DNA of 29,975 nucleotides from a virus. The position numbers were made by a program, and so were the translations under genes. The stretch's first letter is position 1, and the number at the start of each line of letters is the position of its first letter. The notes beneath the pieces are model-generated. The model worked only from the letters and a program-made list of their open reading frames with translations. It ran no database searches and had not been told where the DNA came from. The stretch is from positions 1 through 29,975 of IMG/VR virus record IMGVR_UViG_3300016457_001481. One strand, written 5' to 3'. Positions 1,853 to 9,475 of this stretch are shown piece after piece.

Positions 1853-3076
1853 CTAATTTGTGTTTGCGGTGGCTGTGTCTGGGGCGGCATCCAGATCCAC
1901 CCAGCCGAGGCCGTGGGCAGCGCTGAGAGTGCGCCACGCATATGCCGCCTCCAAAGGCACCACTCCGTTTCCGAGCAGTCGCAAAGCGCGTGGCCTCTGG
2001 GCCAGCCCATGAGCCAGGTCACGAAGGCCGGTGAGAGCCTTTGCTTGGTCCACCAATCCCGGCGTTTCGATTTCCACCGCTCGTAGGACTGTTTCGATTT
2101 CCAAGCCGTGCGTGCGGGCACAGATCCTGCGGGCCTCGTCTGAGGAGAATATGGCCGCGAGATTGAGCGCGGCGGTTTTGATATCGCGGCGCGAAAAAGA
2201 AGGCGTGCAAGTTGGGTTTTGTCGAATGATAGATGCCCATGCGGTTGCGTCATTTGGGGGGGGTGGAAAAAGCTGTACGCGACCATATTCGGTAGTTGGT
2301 CCATGTGGGCTTTTCCCGTTGATGTGGTGATATGCTTCGTGCTGTTTTCGCCTTTGTGGTCCCGCGCGGCGGGGGTGGCCCAGTTCTGTAGAATTTTTTC
2401 CACATTCCGGGTAAAATCGTTGTTTCCCGCCGCACTGTTTCCGTTCCTCGCGGGAGTCCCGGACATTGGCGTCGGCCAGCTTTTCACGACCTCTTGGAGG
2501 TCCGGGCCGCCCGCATCGCGCGCTTGTCGATTGCTGTTCGCTCCGCCCGTCATCCCTTTCGCGGTGGGCCACAATGAAAACTCTCTGGCGTTCATGCGGC
2601 GCGCCGACTTCCGACGCTGAGAATAGGCCCACCGCAGTCTGGAACTCCAATTCGTGTAGTTTTCGAAGCACGGTTTCGAGGCCGAGGCTAAGATGCCCGG
2701 AGACGTTCTCGAAAAAGCACCATCGCAATCCGGTGCCGATCTCGTTGATGATACGCGCAATGTCTGGCCATAGGTGACGCTCGTCGGTTTCGCCCTTTCG
2801 GGATCCGGCGTGACTAAACGGTTGGCATGGGTATCCAGCGAGGAGGGTGTCAAATGCGCCGGCGAATGGCACTGCGTTGAATGTGGCGACATCGTCCCAG
2901 ATTGGGGCCGGTGCGAAATATCCGGCGCGTTGAGCGGCGATGATGGTCGATCTTGGGTATTCATCCCATTCGACAAAGCAGCGCGTGTGGAATTCTGGCT
3001 CGGCGAGCATGAGGCCCATATCCAAGCCTCCGCCTCCTGCGCAGAGGGACAATCCGTTTCTGGGTGGTAACACCAT
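1853..3076 (-). CDS. DNA (cytosine-5) methyltransferase
   Basis: This protein of about 407 residues transfers a methyl group from S-adenosylmethionine to C5 of cytosine in DNA. Class motifs appear in order: motif I LSLCAGGGGLDMGL (about residues 9-22), motif IV GYPCQPFS with catalytic Cys84, motif VI FFENVSGH (about 122-129), motif VIII PHERQRVFIVA (about 160-170) and motif X LLGNGVVP (about 366-373). The variable stretch between VIII and X would be the target-recognition domain. No restriction endonuclease is adjacent, so it is an orphan enzyme that may protect phage DNA or alter host regulation. The start is uncertain. ATG 3115 is an in-frame alternative that would overlap the upstream mini-ORF, and neither start has a strong ribosome site. 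A longer extension to 3412 would run through the upstream gene and is rejected. Confidence 0.93.
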   Translation of the reverse strand: MVLPPRNGLSLCAGGGGLDMGLMLAEPEFHTRCFVEWDEYPRSTIIAAQRAGYFAPAPIWDDVATFNAVPFAGAFDTLLAGYPCQPFSHAGSRKGETDERHLWPDIARIINEIGTGLRWCFFENVSGHLSLGLETVLRKLHELEFQTAVGLFSASEVGAPHERQRVFIVAHRERDDGRSEQQSTSARCGRPGPPRGREKLADANVRDSREERKQCGGKQRFYPECGKNSTELGHPRRAGPQRRKQHEAYHHINGKSPHGPTTEYGRVQLFPPPPNDATAWASIIRQNPTCTPSFSRRDIKTAALNLAAIFSSDEARRICARTHGLEIETVLRAVEIETPGLVDQAKALTGLRDLAHGLAQRPRALRLLGNGVVPLEAAYAWRTLSAAHGLGWVDLDAAPDTATANTN

Positions 3077-3084
3077 GTCATTGA

Positions 3085-3165
3085 TCACTTCATCCGATAG
3101 AGGATTTCGAGCCATGCCCAATGGGAAGCCGCGCCGATGGCGAGGCAGGCAAGGGCGCAGATCAT
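3085..3165 (-). CDS. Possible 26-residue membrane peptide
   Basis: A short ORF starts in an ATGA overlap with the upstream gene's stop and ends 8 nt before the methyltransferase start. The product has one hydrophobic stretch (CALACLAIGAA) followed by aromatic residues and a short basic end (YRMK), as in a single-pass membrane peptide. The overlap pattern matches the rest of this operon, which supports translation. Its small size makes chance a real possibility. Confidence 0.4.
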   Translation of the reverse strand: MICALACLAIGAASHWAWLEILYRMK

Positions 3166-3437
3166 GCGGCCACCTCGTCGCTTTGGGCGGCAAGGGTGCG
3201 ACCTGCGCTTTTGATCCAGTTGCCGATTGCCTCCTCCTCAGAGGCTCCAAAACCAGAAATCCCGTGCAACGAAATTTCGGCCATATGTGAGGCGGGCCAG
3301 TTTTCGCCGCGTGGGATTGTGTATGTGCCGCCGCTCTCGATCGTTTCATTGAAAAACGCGTCTTTGCGTTCAGGCCATTCCAGATCAATGACGCGCGCGA
3401 AAAAGCGGGCAAGGTGGTTTTCGATGTCGGCGATCAT
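3162..3437 (-). CDS. Hypothetical early phage protein
   Basis: This 91-residue acidic protein of unknown function begins MIADIENHLARFF, continues with a strand-rich middle (ESGGTYTIPRGENW) and ends in a helix (SEEEAIGNWIKSAGRTLA). The final helix resembles the small 'EEAIGNWI' tails of other phage early proteins, but I cannot name a family. ATG 3437 overlaps the upstream stop as ATGA. A 44-codon upstream extension would cover the neighbour and is rejected. It is co-transcribed with the methyltransferase genes. Confidence 0.7.
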   Translation of the reverse strand: MIADIENHLARFFARVIDLEWPERKDAFFNETIESGGTYTIPRGENWPASHMAEISLHGISGFGASEEEAIGNWIKSAGRTLAAQSDEVAA

Positions 3438-4540: not shown

Positions 4541-4569
4541 AATAAAGGGGGAAATATCCCCTTAGTCAA
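4541..4569 (-). promoter_or_regulatory. Leftward lytic promoter with operator in spacer
   Basis: On the minus strand TTGACT (4569-4564) is separated by exactly 17 bases from TTTATT (4546-4541), a good sigma-70 promoter. The 17-base spacer is itself an operator with AAGGGG and CCCC arms, so repressor binding would directly block polymerase. It drives the operon from 4514 down to int. Confidence 0.85.
4545..4563. promoter_or_regulatory. Repressor operator O1
   Basis: The site AAGGGGGAAATATCCCCTT is an inverted repeat (AAGGGG/CCCCTT) with a 7-base centre. It shares a GGGGGAAATAT core with the site at 4575 and with sites flanking the repressor start. Its placement inside the leftward promoter indicates repression. 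Confidence 0.8.
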
Positions 4570-4574
4570 GACAA

Positions 4575-4593
4575 AAGGGGGAAATATTACCCA
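4575..4593. promoter_or_regulatory. Repressor operator O2
   Basis: A second copy, AAGGGGGAAATATTACCCA, has the same GGGGGAAATAT core 30 bases from O1 (about three helical turns), a spacing that suits cooperative binding. On the plus strand it also lies before a possible -10 (CATTAT, 4592-4597), so it may control a weak rightward promoter for the small membrane ORF at 4676. Confidence 0.7.
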
Positions 4594-4631: not shown

Positions 4632-4660
4632 CAAAAGAAAACCCCGCACGGGGCGGGGCT
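4632..4660 (-). terminator. Intrinsic terminator of the repressor operon
   Basis: Read leftward, AGCCCCGC and GCGGGGT form a GC-rich stem around a CCCGT loop, followed by TTTTCTTTT. It lies about 170 bases past the stop of the repressor-coupled gene. It would stop lysogenic transcripts before they reach the early operon. Confidence 0.85.
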
Positions 4661-4675
4661 TGGGGGGTGGTTAAA

Positions 4676-4849
4676 ATGCGTCATGTTCTATTGCTGATCG
4701 GTATGGTGCTCGGAACTGTTTTTATTGCAAGAGGTGTCGCGGATGGCGTATATGATCCGGCTTTTTCGTACTGGGCGGGCGTATCTCAAGGGTTTGGGTG
4801 GGGGATCTTCTTTTTAAGATTGTTTGGTCAGCTATTCCCATCTTCTTGA
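4676..4849 (+). CDS. Possible small membrane protein in immunity region
   Basis: This 57-residue ORF has a hydrophobic N-terminus (HVLLLIGMVLGTVFIARGVA) and a second hydrophobic stretch (WAGVSQGFGWGIFFLRLFGQLF), suggesting two membrane passes. It points rightward against the repressor operon and its end overlaps the end of the convergent gene by 22 bases. A GGTGG lies upstream of ATG 4676. A longer reading from 4469 would run through the operators and is not credible. Function is unknown and gene status is uncertain. Confidence 0.45.
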   Translation: MRHVLLLIGMVLGTVFIARGVADGVYDPAFSYWAGVSQGFGWGIFFLRLFGQLFPSS

Positions 4850-5616
4850 ATGTCTTTGGTGGGGCCTTCGATCATTTTGGTTTGTTCCGGGCCTTCAATC
4901 ATTGTGGTTGCTATGGGTCCTGCTATCGACAAAACCGTCAAAGATTCTGAGGTTAGTCCGAGGACAAAGGCGCCCCCTTTCATGGTTGATGAAACATAAT
5001 CTTTGAATTTTTCGTAAAATTGCCGTTGCTGCCTGTCTAGATCTTCATACTCTGCGGCAAAATCGGCAAAAACAGACTTTAATCGCCGCCTTATTTGATC
5101 ATCTGTCGCGCCGTGGCATTCATGCATGGTTCTTATTATGGATCTAAGTTCAAGTTTGAGGAATTCTCGCTGGACTTCATGTAAGGAAGATCCACTGACC
5201 TCATCAATCATTGCTTCCGTCGATTTAATAAAGTCTTCTCGGTTGAAGGGCTTTTGTTTTGTTATGCTTGTCGCCGATAAAGTGTGACCAATAAGTGTCA
5301 ATGTGGAAATGGTCTGCTTTGCTTGCGCTTTTACCAAGAAGTTTTCGACAGTAACCTGAAGGAGGCCATCAAAGACCGCAGTCTGAAATCCACGAACTTG
5401 GGAGATCATTCTGGTGATGTGATCTTCGGTTAGTGTGTTTATCATTGAAATTTCTTCGATTGCGTCGTCAAATAATCGCAATAGACGAAGTTTGGCGTCG
5501 CTCGCAGTTGTCGTGTCGAGGAGATCTTTGAGGCCAGTGTCTAGTTTCATGCTTTGAGGGTGATCGTAGAAAACACTATATAATTCAGCTATCTCGTAGC
5601 ATTTATTTTCAATCAT
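4828..5616 (-). CDS. Repressor-coupled gene of unknown function
   Basis: This protein of about 262 residues matches no family I recognise. It is predicted almost wholly helical, acidic, with a heptad-like stretch (DLDRQQRQFYEKFKDYVSS) before one hydrophobic C-terminal segment (GGAFVLGLTSESLTVLSIAGPIATTM). It then ends in a short duplicated MIEGP motif. ATG 5616 has GAGG at ideal spacing 13 bases after the repressor stop. ATG 5643 is an in-frame alternative overlapping the repressor. The DNA is visibly AT-richer than its neighbours, suggesting recent acquisition. Transcription with the repressor implies expression in the lysogen, as for superinfection-exclusion or abortive-infection genes, but that is inference. 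Confidence 0.85.
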   Translation of the reverse strand: MIENKCYEIAELYSVFYDHPQSMKLDTGLKDLLDTTTASDAKLRLLRLFDDAIEEISMINTLTEDHITRMISQVRGFQTAVFDGLLQVTVENFLVKAQAKQTISTLTLIGHTLSATSITKQKPFNREDFIKSTEAMIDEVSGSSLHEVQREFLKLELRSIIRTMHECHGATDDQIRRRLKSVFADFAAEYEDLDRQQRQFYEKFKDYVSSTMKGGAFVLGLTSESLTVLSIAGPIATTMIEGPEQTKMIEGPTKDIQEDGNS

Positions 5617-5629
5617 CGAAGCCTCAACA

Positions 5630-6280
5630 TTATTGGTTTCCATCTATTCTAACGGTTAAATCCCGCCCTAAATGCATCTTGATTGGTGCGGCCCATTTGA
5701 TTGCGACGTCATACATGGGCGGGGTGTCGGCGTGGAATGAAATCAAGTCGAATAGGCCCTCGGGCTGGCCATCGCGGCGGCGCAGGAGTTTGATCCACAC
5801 CATGCCGTTCGCATCCTCAATTACACAGCGGCGGCCGATGGCCTCCGCCGGGACACCCATCACCTCACGGGAATAAAACAGGACGTCACCCTCTTCATAG
5901 GCGGGTTCCATGGAGTTGCCCTCGACCTCGACCGCCACGATGCCATTTGGGCCAATCTGTGGTGGGCAAGCGACGTGATAGAGGCCTTCGCCTTTGGGAT
6001 AGGGGTCAGAGAGCTGGACCTGTGCGCCAGCTCCTACGCGTCCGGCGACTGCAATGGTTTTTGCGGCGTCAGCTAGGTTTCCATTGAAAAAGTCTTCTAC
6101 CGAAACGCCGAAGGCGGATGCAACTTTTAGGCCGTCGTCCACGTTGGTGGTTTTGGCTTTGCCTTGCATTAAGCCCTTGAGTTGATCGTATGAAACATCT
6201 GCGACAAGGGCGACGCTCCTGAGGGATCGGCCTGTTTGCTTGAGGGCATCTTCGAGGGCGTCTTTGAATGTCTTTTGCAT
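5630..6280 (-). CDS. S24-family (LexA/CI-like) phage repressor
   Basis: This 216-residue protein maintains lysogeny by binding operators and is inactivated by RecA-stimulated self-cleavage. The N-terminal XRE-type helix-turn-helix covers about residues 5-62 (RSLRSVALVADVSYDQLKGLMQG). The C-terminal S24 peptidase-like domain has Ser123 in EGNSMEP and Lys164 in WIKLLRR. An Ala-Gly cleavage bond is available at 79-80 or 84-85. An operator begins two bases upstream of the start codon, indicating autoregulation. There is no ribosome site before the ATG, so translation is probably from a very short leader. It is followed by a coupled unknown gene. Confidence 0.95.
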   Translation of the reverse strand: MQKTFKDALEDALKQTGRSLRSVALVADVSYDQLKGLMQGKAKTTNVDDGLKVASAFGVSVEDFFNGNLADAAKTIAVAGRVGAGAQVQLSDPYPKGEGLYHVACPPQIGPNGIVAVEVEGNSMEPAYEEGDVLFYSREVMGVPAEAIGRRCVIEDANGMVWIKLLRRRDGQPEGLFDLISFHADTPPMYDVAIKWAAPIKMHLGRDLTVRIDGNQ

Positions 6281-6281
6281 G

Positions 6282-6299
6282 TGGGGAAATATACCCTTT
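6282..6299. promoter_or_regulatory. Repressor operator O3
   Basis: TGGGGAAATATACCCTTT shares the GGGGAAATAT core of O1 and O2. It lies between the repressor's proposed -10 and its ATG, so occupancy would shut off repressor synthesis. Confidence 0.75.
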
Positions 6300-6331: not shown

Positions 6332-6360
6332 TTGCTTTGAGGGGGATATATCCCCTAACT
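6332..6360 (+). promoter_or_regulatory. Rightward lytic promoter with operator in spacer
   Basis: TTGCTT (6332-6337) and CTAACT (6355-6360) are 17 bases apart. The spacer holds operator O4, the same design as the leftward promoter. Initiation about seven bases past the -10 would fall at or next to the Cro-like ATG at 6369. Confidence 0.7.
6339..6357. promoter_or_regulatory. Repressor operator O4
   Basis: The core GGGGGATATATCCCC is the most symmetric of the four sites, flanked by A and T. A half-site TTTTCCCC lies about ten bases upstream (6324-6331). It occupies the spacer of the rightward promoter. Confidence 0.78.
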
Positions 6361-6368
6361 GTCGAGCC

Positions 6369-6584
6369 ATGGAGCAGTTTATTTCAGACATTCAGGCTTA
6401 TGCGTCGGCTGTTGGTCGTTCGCCGCAATCAATCTTGCGGTCTGCGGTGAATGCGAAGTGGGGCACATGGGATGCGTGGGGGGCGGGAACGTCCAGCCCA
6501 ACGTTGATCGTTGCAGATCGTATTCGGGCCTACATGGCTGACAATCCGCCGCGTGGGGCCAAGGCTGCGGAGAAAGCGGCATGA
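6369..6584 (+). CDS. Cro-like early regulator
   Basis: This 71-residue protein is divergent from the repressor and directly behind the rightward promoter, the position of Cro or Cox. It has a possible helix-turn-helix (DIQAYASAVGRSPQSILRSAVNAKWGTWDAW) and a second helix (TLIVADRIRAYMADN). Assignment as Cro-like comes mainly from position, since the sequence does not match a named family I am sure of. ATG 6369 has no Shine-Dalgarno and sits at the predicted transcription start, suggesting a leaderless message. An upstream ATG at 6315 would read through the operator and is less likely. Confidence 0.75.
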   Translation: MEQFISDIQAYASAVGRSPQSILRSAVNAKWGTWDAWGAGTSSPTLIVADRIRAYMADNPPRGAKAAEKAA

Positions 6585-7168: not shown

Positions 7169-7723
7169 TTAGGTGTTTTTCAGAAACGGCTTTCTGCCCG
7201 CCGCTTTGGGGTAAAGCAGAGCGAACCTGACTATTACAGCTTGGCCGTTGCCTTTCTGGGCAACAGCGCAAAGACGCGCTTTCAGCGGGAGTTCGGAGGT
7301 GAATTCTTGGGCAATACTGGCCGAAATCTCTTTCGGGACATAGCCGAGGAATACCGCCTGATGACCGCTACAGGGGATTCCGAAGACAGCAAGCGCATTT
7401 GGGTCCGTTGGATTGTCTGGTGCGGGTCTGACTTCGAGTTCTGCGGTTCGGGCGTTGAGCGCAATAAAAAAAGGCTCTGCCCGATTGTCTATATTCAAAC
7501 CTTTTACGTTGAGTTTGTTGCCGCGTTTCACAGGCATGAAGCCATCAGGATTTTCTCTCTCAATTTCAATCCATTGCCACTCGTCGCCCCCGTAATAGTC
7601 GTCTGCGAAGATCGGGTAAACTTTTCGCTTTGCATTGCGGTTTGGGTACCTCTTTTGAGTTGCTTCTGGCTTTTGCAACTTTGCGTCGGGTTTGCGCCCG
7701 AACAGAAAACTAAACAGACCCAT
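7169..7723 (-). CDS. HIRAN-domain protein, reversed accessory gene
   Basis: This 184-residue protein has a hydrophobic N-terminus (MGLFSFLFGRKP) that may anchor or insert, a basic linker, then a HIRAN-like domain at about residues 80-172. The domain has the family's NPTDPNALAVFG and FLGYVPKEIS landmarks. HIRAN domains bind 3' single-stranded DNA ends, for example in HLTF. Stand-alone copies occur in phages and mobile elements with unclear roles. GAGGAA precedes ATG 7723. It is transcribed against the rightward early operon and its DNA is AT-richer, both typical of a moron. The plus-strand ORF across it is a shadow. Confidence 0.78.
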   Translation of the reverse strand: MGLFSFLFGRKPDAKLQKPEATQKRYPNRNAKRKVYPIFADDYYGGDEWQWIEIERENPDGFMPVKRGNKLNVKGLNIDNRAEPFFIALNARTAELEVRPAPDNPTDPNALAVFGIPCSGHQAVFLGYVPKEISASIAQEFTSELPLKARLCAVAQKGNGQAVIVRFALLYPKAAGRKPFLKNT

Positions 7724-7751
7724 TTCAATTTCCTCTTTCAAATTGTGGCGC

Positions 7752-8842: not shown

Positions 8843-9475
8843 GTGACAACAGCTTTTAAAGTCGTGGGTGGTCAAGATGGCAGCGAATTGCCCGTCTACC
8901 CGTATGGCTCCGAGGATCGTCTCGATAGTCACCATTTCGTGCCCTGGGAGCGGCGGCGGTGGCTTAACTCTGGGATGCGCTTACAGGGGACGCCGGAAAG
9001 CCGCGCGCATTTTTTGGACCTGATTTGGATTTCTTACGATCAATCACCGATCGGGACTTTGCCCGACGATTTGCCGCTGTTGGCGCGGTTGGTCATGGTC
9101 GAGCGGGATCGGTTCGAGGCGCTTTGTCAGTTGCCCTTTGGGCCGCTGCACAATTGGGCGCGCTGCGAATGTGAGGGGGGAGAAATCCGCCTCTATCATC
9201 CGATGGTCTTGCGGACGTTGACGGATGCAATGGCACGGCGTGAGGATCATCGCGCCCGTTGTGAGGCGGCAAGCGCGTCTAAGCGTCTGTTGCGGCTGCG
9301 CGGGGTGCTTGCCGGATACAACGCGGACCTCGCCAAAAATGACGCGGCGGTGCGTTTCATCGACGAATGGCTGGTGTCTCAAGAGTGCGTCAAGCGCACC
9401 CCAGAGTGGATCGGGCGCGGCATGGCGGCTTGGCACAATCACTCATTCGCGGTCGCGCGGCGCACCCCTCAATAA
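8843..9475 (+). CDS. DUF1376-like replication protein
   Basis: This protein of about 210 residues has an N-terminal region (SHHFVPWERRRWLNSG, then SRAHFLDLIWISYDQSPIGTLPDDLPLLARLVMVERDRFEAL, then YHPMVLRTLTDAMARREDHRAR). It follows the layout of DUF1376/YdaU-type winged-helix proteins found in phage replication modules. These usually bind the origin or load helicase partners. GTG 8843 is preferred because GGGGAG is six bases upstream. TTG 8837 is an in-frame alternative. The next 170 bases hold a DnaA box and inverted repeats, consistent with an origin beside its initiator. The family call is moderate. Confidence 0.72.
   Translation: MTTAFKVVGGQDGSELPVYPYGSEDRLDSHHFVPWERRRWLNSGMRLQGTPESRAHFLDLIWISYDQSPIGTLPDDLPLLARLVMVERDRFEALCQLPFGPLHNWARCECEGGEIRLYHPMVLRTLTDAMARREDHRARCEAASASKRLLRLRGVLAGYNADLAKNDAAVRFIDEWLVSQECVKRTPEWIGRGMAAWHNHSFAVARRTPQ

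Follow-up and report, generated by a model that had tools for sequence, protein, structure and literature searches.

The stretch of DNA analyzed here, hereafter the window, is a 29,975-base IMG/VR virus record, and its virus is a temperate phage (prophage) of a marine-type bacterium. The locus under study is the immunity region, in which a gene of interest (the main gene) follows the repressor gene; its features are given below.

4546..4562, candidate operator oL1, AGGGGGAAATATCCCCT, between the -35 and -10 elements of the leftward early promoter (TTGACT)
4576..4592, candidate operator oL2, AGGGGGAAATATTACCC, operator-like palindrome
4639..4661, minus strand, intrinsic terminator of the repressor operon, past the start codon of the convergent gene
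4659..5656, cassette interval swapped in comparison with the related phage L005
4676..4849, plus strand, convergent small gene, 57 aa, two hydrophobic segments, found at the same place in the phages L002 and L003
4828..5616, minus strand, main gene, 262 aa, predicted all-alpha protein with a C-terminal hydrophobic helix, of a family without known members
4862..4915, minus strand, 27-nt tandem duplication producing a repeated MIEGP (repeat analysis), single copy in L002
5630..6280, minus strand, CI-type repressor (HTH and S24 peptidase domain; Pfam PF00717, 3.9e-7; phrog_4, 8.3e-14), first gene of the operon
6281..6297, candidate operator at the repressor promoter, GTGGGGAAATATACCCT, operator-like palindrome
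6340..6356, candidate operator at the rightward early promoter, AGGGGGATATATCCCCT, operator-like palindrome
6369..6584, plus strand, divergent gene in the Cro position, across the operators from the repressor, without a family match in Pfam or PHROGs

The frame of the main gene (4828-5643, minus strand) is uninterrupted for 271 codons, and its upstream-most start, the ATG at 5643, would give a 14-nt overlap with the repressor gene. The ATG at 5616 is the likelier start because GAGG lies 5 nt upstream of it and the aligned homologs begin near this position. The original prediction placed the gene next to the 3' side of the repressor, on the same strand and with this start; the arrangement is upheld, with a gap of 13 nt between the repressor stop codon (5630-5632) and the ATG, and translational coupling to the repressor is plausible. 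The deviant base composition that had been pointed out also holds: the main gene has 43.0% G+C compared to 58.3% for the record, and outside the main-gene region the lowest value for any 789-nt segment is at least 51.5%.

The AlphaFold2 model, built from five homologs, is all-alpha (mean pLDDT 68.7), in agreement with the helical product predicted originally. The single C-terminal hydrophobic segment is present as well (residues 226-244 in the numbering of the 271-aa frame), with a Kyte-Doolittle value of 1.45 in this copy, under the usual cut-off of 1.6; the same segment scores 1.79 in L002 and 1.74 in the chromosomal relative L052, both above the cut-off, and the C-terminal helix is the top hydrophobic feature in every family member. 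The duplicated MIEGP motif arises from two 74% identical halves of the tandem duplication (4862-4888 and 4889-4915); because the L002 homolog carries IEGP only once, the repeat is lineage-specific and does not define the family.

The earlier statement that the protein belongs to no recognized family withstood searches of four HMM libraries (Pfam, PHROGs, NCBIfam, and PADLOC) and PDB, none of which produced a match. Foldseek comparison of the AlphaFold2 model with PDB and BFVD returned nothing at E<0.001, and none of the PADLOC-DB 2.0 models gave a meaningful hit (best E 0.008, partial). Several weak library matches, namely, the lipase chaperone NF002334 (2e-4), Drf_FH3, DrmA (0.02), PDC-M38A (0.009), and phrog_31082 (0.005), span single helical stretches far under the cut-offs and were rejected as chance similarity of the coiled-coil kind.

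We found four relatives of the main gene, two in prophages, from scans of viral and genome contigs, and two in bacterial chromosomes, from profile searches of the genomes of the order. The prophage relatives, L002 (the same as L004, from Pseudooceanicola atlanticus) and L003, show 42% and 36% identity to the main protein, respectively, and their existence in other phages indicates that the main gene is more than a chance ORF. Both sit downstream of repressors that differ from that of the window; in L003, the family gene directly follows the repressor, and in L002, the two are separated by a 72-aa gene. Of the chromosomal relatives, L052 (27% identity) has a serine recombinase on one side and tRNA-Ser on the other, and the neighbors of L053 (20%) are an apparent carboxylase-subunit gene and a DUF6497 gene; neither relative has adjoining phage genes. 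The family-level genome scan yielded a true match only in one genome of 397 (G001), and the order-level scan detected the family gene in 3 of 395 genomes. Within the three host genera, the gene was present in 1 of 23, 1 of 17, and 1 of 57 genomes. There was no significant relative in the phage collection (queried with the window and L002 proteins) or in the plasmid collection (queried with the window, L003, L052, and L053 proteins). Three further genome matches (L013, L018, and L019; E 0.002-0.007) were dropped when their ORFs were read by eye as OmpA-like, GntR-type, and DapF-type proteins. Judging by these genomes, the family is rare, sporadic, and mobile in its distribution, and all five family genes are AT-richer than their surroundings.

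The main gene was thought to be followed by the terminator of its transcription unit. A terminator is indeed present but not directly behind the main gene: it lies ~167 nt past the main-gene end, and the convergent small gene (4676-4849, plus strand), which had been overlooked, intervenes. Counterparts of this gene occupy the same place in L002 (8767-8928, minus strand, 53 aa) and L003 (8771-8926, minus strand, 51 aa), each with two hydrophobic segments, and overlap the 3' end of the respective main gene tail to tail (by 22 nt in the window, 41 nt in L002, and 4 nt in L003). The small proteins of the three phages have in common the motif [SD]P-x-x-x-Y-x-x-G-x-x-Q-G. In each comparison of the downstream regions, the small-gene frame is the top-scoring of all frame pairings, its score being reached by 0 of 200, 0 of 200, and 20 of 200 dinucleotide-preserving shuffles. 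No other locus in a set of about 80 repressor loci has the motif or matches a profile of the small protein, and the gene was not found beside the chromosomal relatives L052 and L053. Profile matches in a 210-aa frame and other larger frames were discarded as chance hydrophobic similarity; only the match in G001 adjoins a 271-aa homolog. A search for a consensus promoter of the small gene found none.

Equivalents of the terminator are located at 8941-8959 in L002, 8939-8956 in L003, and 8086-8104 in L005, and in the three phages with the small gene, the terminator lies 10-15 nt past the small-gene start codon. Because the terminator sits beyond the small gene, a full-length operon transcript would run antisense through the entire small gene.

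The unit is flanked on both sides by 17-nt operator-like palindromes, the candidate repressor operators, a feature absent from the original prediction. The 16-nt operator core, with up to three mismatches, has six matches in the record, all in the four sites, compared to 0.36 expected. The operator layout is common to the window, L002, and L003, and the sequence differs in each phage: L002 carries TGGCCAATTGTCC at 9063 and 7009, with near copies at 9032 and 7033, and L003 carries GGGAATTCATTCC at 9053 and 7260, with near copies at 9082 and 7234. In each of these three phages, one distal operator is located inside a TTGAC-type promoter (read by eye). Comparison with the lambda reference shows that the layout of the window corresponds to the lambda order oL-rexB-rexA-cI-oR; this rex-like layout had likewise been missed, and the earlier reading of the position as a defense slot is otherwise supported.

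The comparison with L005, the repressor of which is 80% identical to that of the window, delineates the cassette. The similarity breaks off at 5657 and picks up again at 4658, where the terminator lies; L005 keeps the repressor, operators, and terminator and carries a different convergent gene pair, a gene of 274 aa and, facing it, a DUF488 gene, which together match the PADLOC candidate pair PDC-M19B/A (E 1e-65 and 8e-30). Given that the flanks match and the interval is swapped, the main gene and its convergent partner behave as one exchangeable cassette. L003 and L005 have ORFs similar to the Cro-position gene (6369..6584) in the corresponding position.

A survey of the repressor-downstream slot in related prophages had been suggested along with the original prediction. 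We fetched 80 loci with an alignment of six repressors, analyzed 75, and considered the slot filled if an ORF of at least 60 aa started within 150 nt past the repressor stop codon. By this simple ORF calling, under which some short ORFs will be wrong, the slot is filled in 64 of the 75 loci, and the 64 occupants fall into 53 sequence families. The occupant is AT-richer than its locus in 60 of the 64 cases (median difference -8.7 points, Wilcoxon p 5e-11, with the loci partly non-independent) and AT-richer than its own repressor in 56. AT-richness is thus a property of the slot and not unique evidence for the main gene. Many occupants are uncharacterized; the recognizable ones include the PDC-M19 pair of L005, a PDC-S42-like protein (1e-7), a weak BRCT/PDC-S48-like match (1e-5), a cytosine methyltransferase, an HSDR_N nuclease domain, SocA and HicB antitoxins, and DUF3800. 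The slot also holds proteins with VasI-like, ClpP-like SDH protease, and DUF6197 domains, of which the first two might serve other ends. The candidate defense, restriction, and antitoxin genes among the occupants support an accessory, probably defensive role for the main gene.

Functional precedents for such a slot are RexAB (PMC11077077, PMC12894663), CarolAnn genes 43 and 44 (PMC6426606), BstA (PMC8585504), and the Vibrio prophage hotspot between cI and the integrase (PMC9122126). The main gene shares with RexA-RexB of lambda and RexAB of Pseudomonas putida prophage P1 its place in the repressor operon, with cI on one side and oL on the other, and the pairing of a soluble-type protein of ~270-280 aa with a membrane protein. 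The proteins differ, however: RexA consists of beta-sheet globular and dimerization domains (PMC11077077), whereas the main protein is predicted to be all-alpha, and RexA is not among the listed Foldseek PDB matches of the model. No similarity to RexA or RexB was detected; the hhalign probability against lambda RexA (queries A1 and A3) is 0.1%, in a low-power test, because two slot proteins from RexAB-like layouts also fail against the single RexA sequence. RexB is a four-TM protein encoded co-directionally with the cI operon, whereas the partner in the window is a 2-TM protein (51-57 aa across the three phages) encoded convergently on the opposite strand.

BstA of prophage BTP1 resembles the main protein in that it is a single protein encoded directly downstream of a prophage repressor and has some prophage-independent homologs; in contrast, it has a KilA-N-like domain and an aba DNA element for self-immunity, and the part of the source used here describes no membrane partner (PMC8585504). 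KilA-N is absent from the Pfam matches of the main protein, and hhalign gives a probability of 0.1% for BstA. In CarolAnn (gp43/gp44) and Sbash (gp30/gp31), two genes confer heterotypic defense and, in CarolAnn, are cotranscribed with the repressor (PMC6426606), but the CarolAnn genes are co-directional with the repressor and have a reported weak link to DUF4747 that is not seen in the window gene. The PDC-M19 pair (DUF488 and PDC-M19B) in L005 has the same slot, immunity region, and convergent two-gene layout, with unrelated proteins. Opposite-strand overlapping exclusion genes in an immunity region are also known from Pseudomonas phage Fc02 (olg1/gene 10; PMC9936078), which, however, is a transposable phage with the genes in another position and overlapping gene on gene. 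These comparisons give no evidence that the main protein is kin to RexAB, BstA, CarolAnn, or Vibrio hotspot genes.

We consider it fairly probable that the locus is an exclusion or abortive-infection cassette of a new family, expressed in lysogeny and probably acting at the membrane; the mechanism is proposed with less confidence. This interpretation is favored by the operon position, the flanking operators, the swap for a candidate defense pair, the slot turnover, and the sporadic, mobile distribution. The main and small genes would together make up an accessory cassette of two genes, set in a hypervariable slot that two operator regions enclose. The lysogen would make the 262-aa protein together with the repressor, as we infer from their shared operon, and this protein would shield the lysogen from other phages, with the C-terminal hydrophobic helix probably docking the helical protein on the inner membrane. 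Given that the chromosomal relatives lack the small gene, the large protein probably needs no partner for sensing and acting. The small two-helix protein, read from the early-promoter side toward the operon, would modulate the large protein at the membrane. It could serve as an effector or, once the phage itself turns lytic, switch the large protein off; we hold these two options about equal. The sequence itself establishes the family, the operon order, the convergent partner, the operators, the terminators, the cassette swap, and the slot turnover, and from these the expression, membrane contact, defense activity, and role of the partner are deduced. Against this interpretation count the marginal hydrophobicity of the C-terminal helix in this copy, the lack of a meaningful PADLOC model, the empty promoter search for the small gene, and the many uncharacterized slot occupants, some of which may have other purposes; the slot survey and cassette exchange speak for the candidate exclusion or defense role originally assigned to the gene.

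Lysogenic conversion unrelated to defense, whereby the main gene would alter host physiology or stress survival, appears unlikely. It would accommodate the lack of a defense-model match and the VasI-like, ClpP-like, and DUF6197 occupants of the slot, but the best-recognized occupants are restriction, toxin-antitoxin, and candidate defense genes, and the sporadic, mobile family resembles defense genes. We deem it less probable still that the main protein or its RNA is an accessory of lysogeny control that tunes the repressor or the early promoters. The main gene does belong to the repressor operon, convergent transcription between the operators could couple both transcripts, and RexA has been reported to bias the lambda switch; nevertheless, the relatives accompany different repressors and operators or reside in chromosomes without adjoining phage genes, the sister phage L005 does without the main gene, and the Pfam search detected no DNA-binding domain in the main protein.

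Within the exclusion or abortive-infection interpretation, a speculative extension is that the 3' untranslated region of the repressor-defense operon serves as a full-length antisense RNA to the small gene, which would make this a new two-gene defense architecture; we regard this as doubtful. The lysogenic transcript would then both yield the defense protein and keep the membrane protein silent. Derepression (upon induction of the phage itself) or transcription shut-off (when a rival infects) would reverse this balance, resulting in self-immunity or membrane-based abortive infection keyed to the prophage state. The convergent layout recurs with unrelated proteins in L005 and L069. Least probable is a type I-like toxin-antitoxin, in which the antisense 3' untranslated region would keep a small membrane toxin silent in the lysogen and release it when operon transcription stops: if the operon is transcribed to its terminator, the transcript would span the whole small gene in three phages, ending 10-15 nt past its start codon, and type I toxins are often small and hydrophobic, as is this protein, but the known pairs employ a dedicated short antisense RNA, the promoter search for the small gene came up empty, and the conserved large protein would need another role.

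The locus thus combines a protein family absent from all searched libraries with a membrane partner conserved in three phages. In these temperate phages, the oL-to-cI interval turns over quickly and has dozens of unrelated occupants, and it can be easily searched for new anti-phage systems. Because the relative L004 belongs to the sequenced Pseudooceanicola atlanticus 22II-s11g, function, expression, and the antisense idea are directly testable.

Other occupants of the slot include, in L069, a PDC-S42-like 305-aa protein (4683-5600, plus strand) with a convergent, very hydrophobic 57-aa membrane ORF (5562-5735, minus strand), a window-like layout with unrelated proteins. Two-gene units with a RexAB-like layout, a protein of ~280-306 aa and a multi-helix membrane protein of ~160 aa, follow the repressor in L095 (4626-6021), L100 (4689-6101), and L105 (4761-6096), all on the plus strand; the units of L100 and L105 have no PADLOC match. 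The slot protein of L059 (2350-2943, plus strand, 197 aa) is SLATT-membrane-protein-like by eye, and the sole slot gene of L115 (4701-5639, plus strand) reads as a ClpP-like SDH-type serine protease. In phage BTP1 (L056), a small gene annotated FumD (1-77) is also convergent to bstA, probably by coincidence. Elsewhere in the window, the gene at 7169-7741 (minus strand), inside the rightward early region, encodes a HIRAN-domain protein (PF08797, 1.9e-5; weak PADLOC match to PDC-M03B) and is likely a second accessory gene, and the ORF at 1853-3412 (minus strand), in the leftward early operon, shows by eye the cytosine-C5 methyltransferase motifs PCQPFS and ENV.
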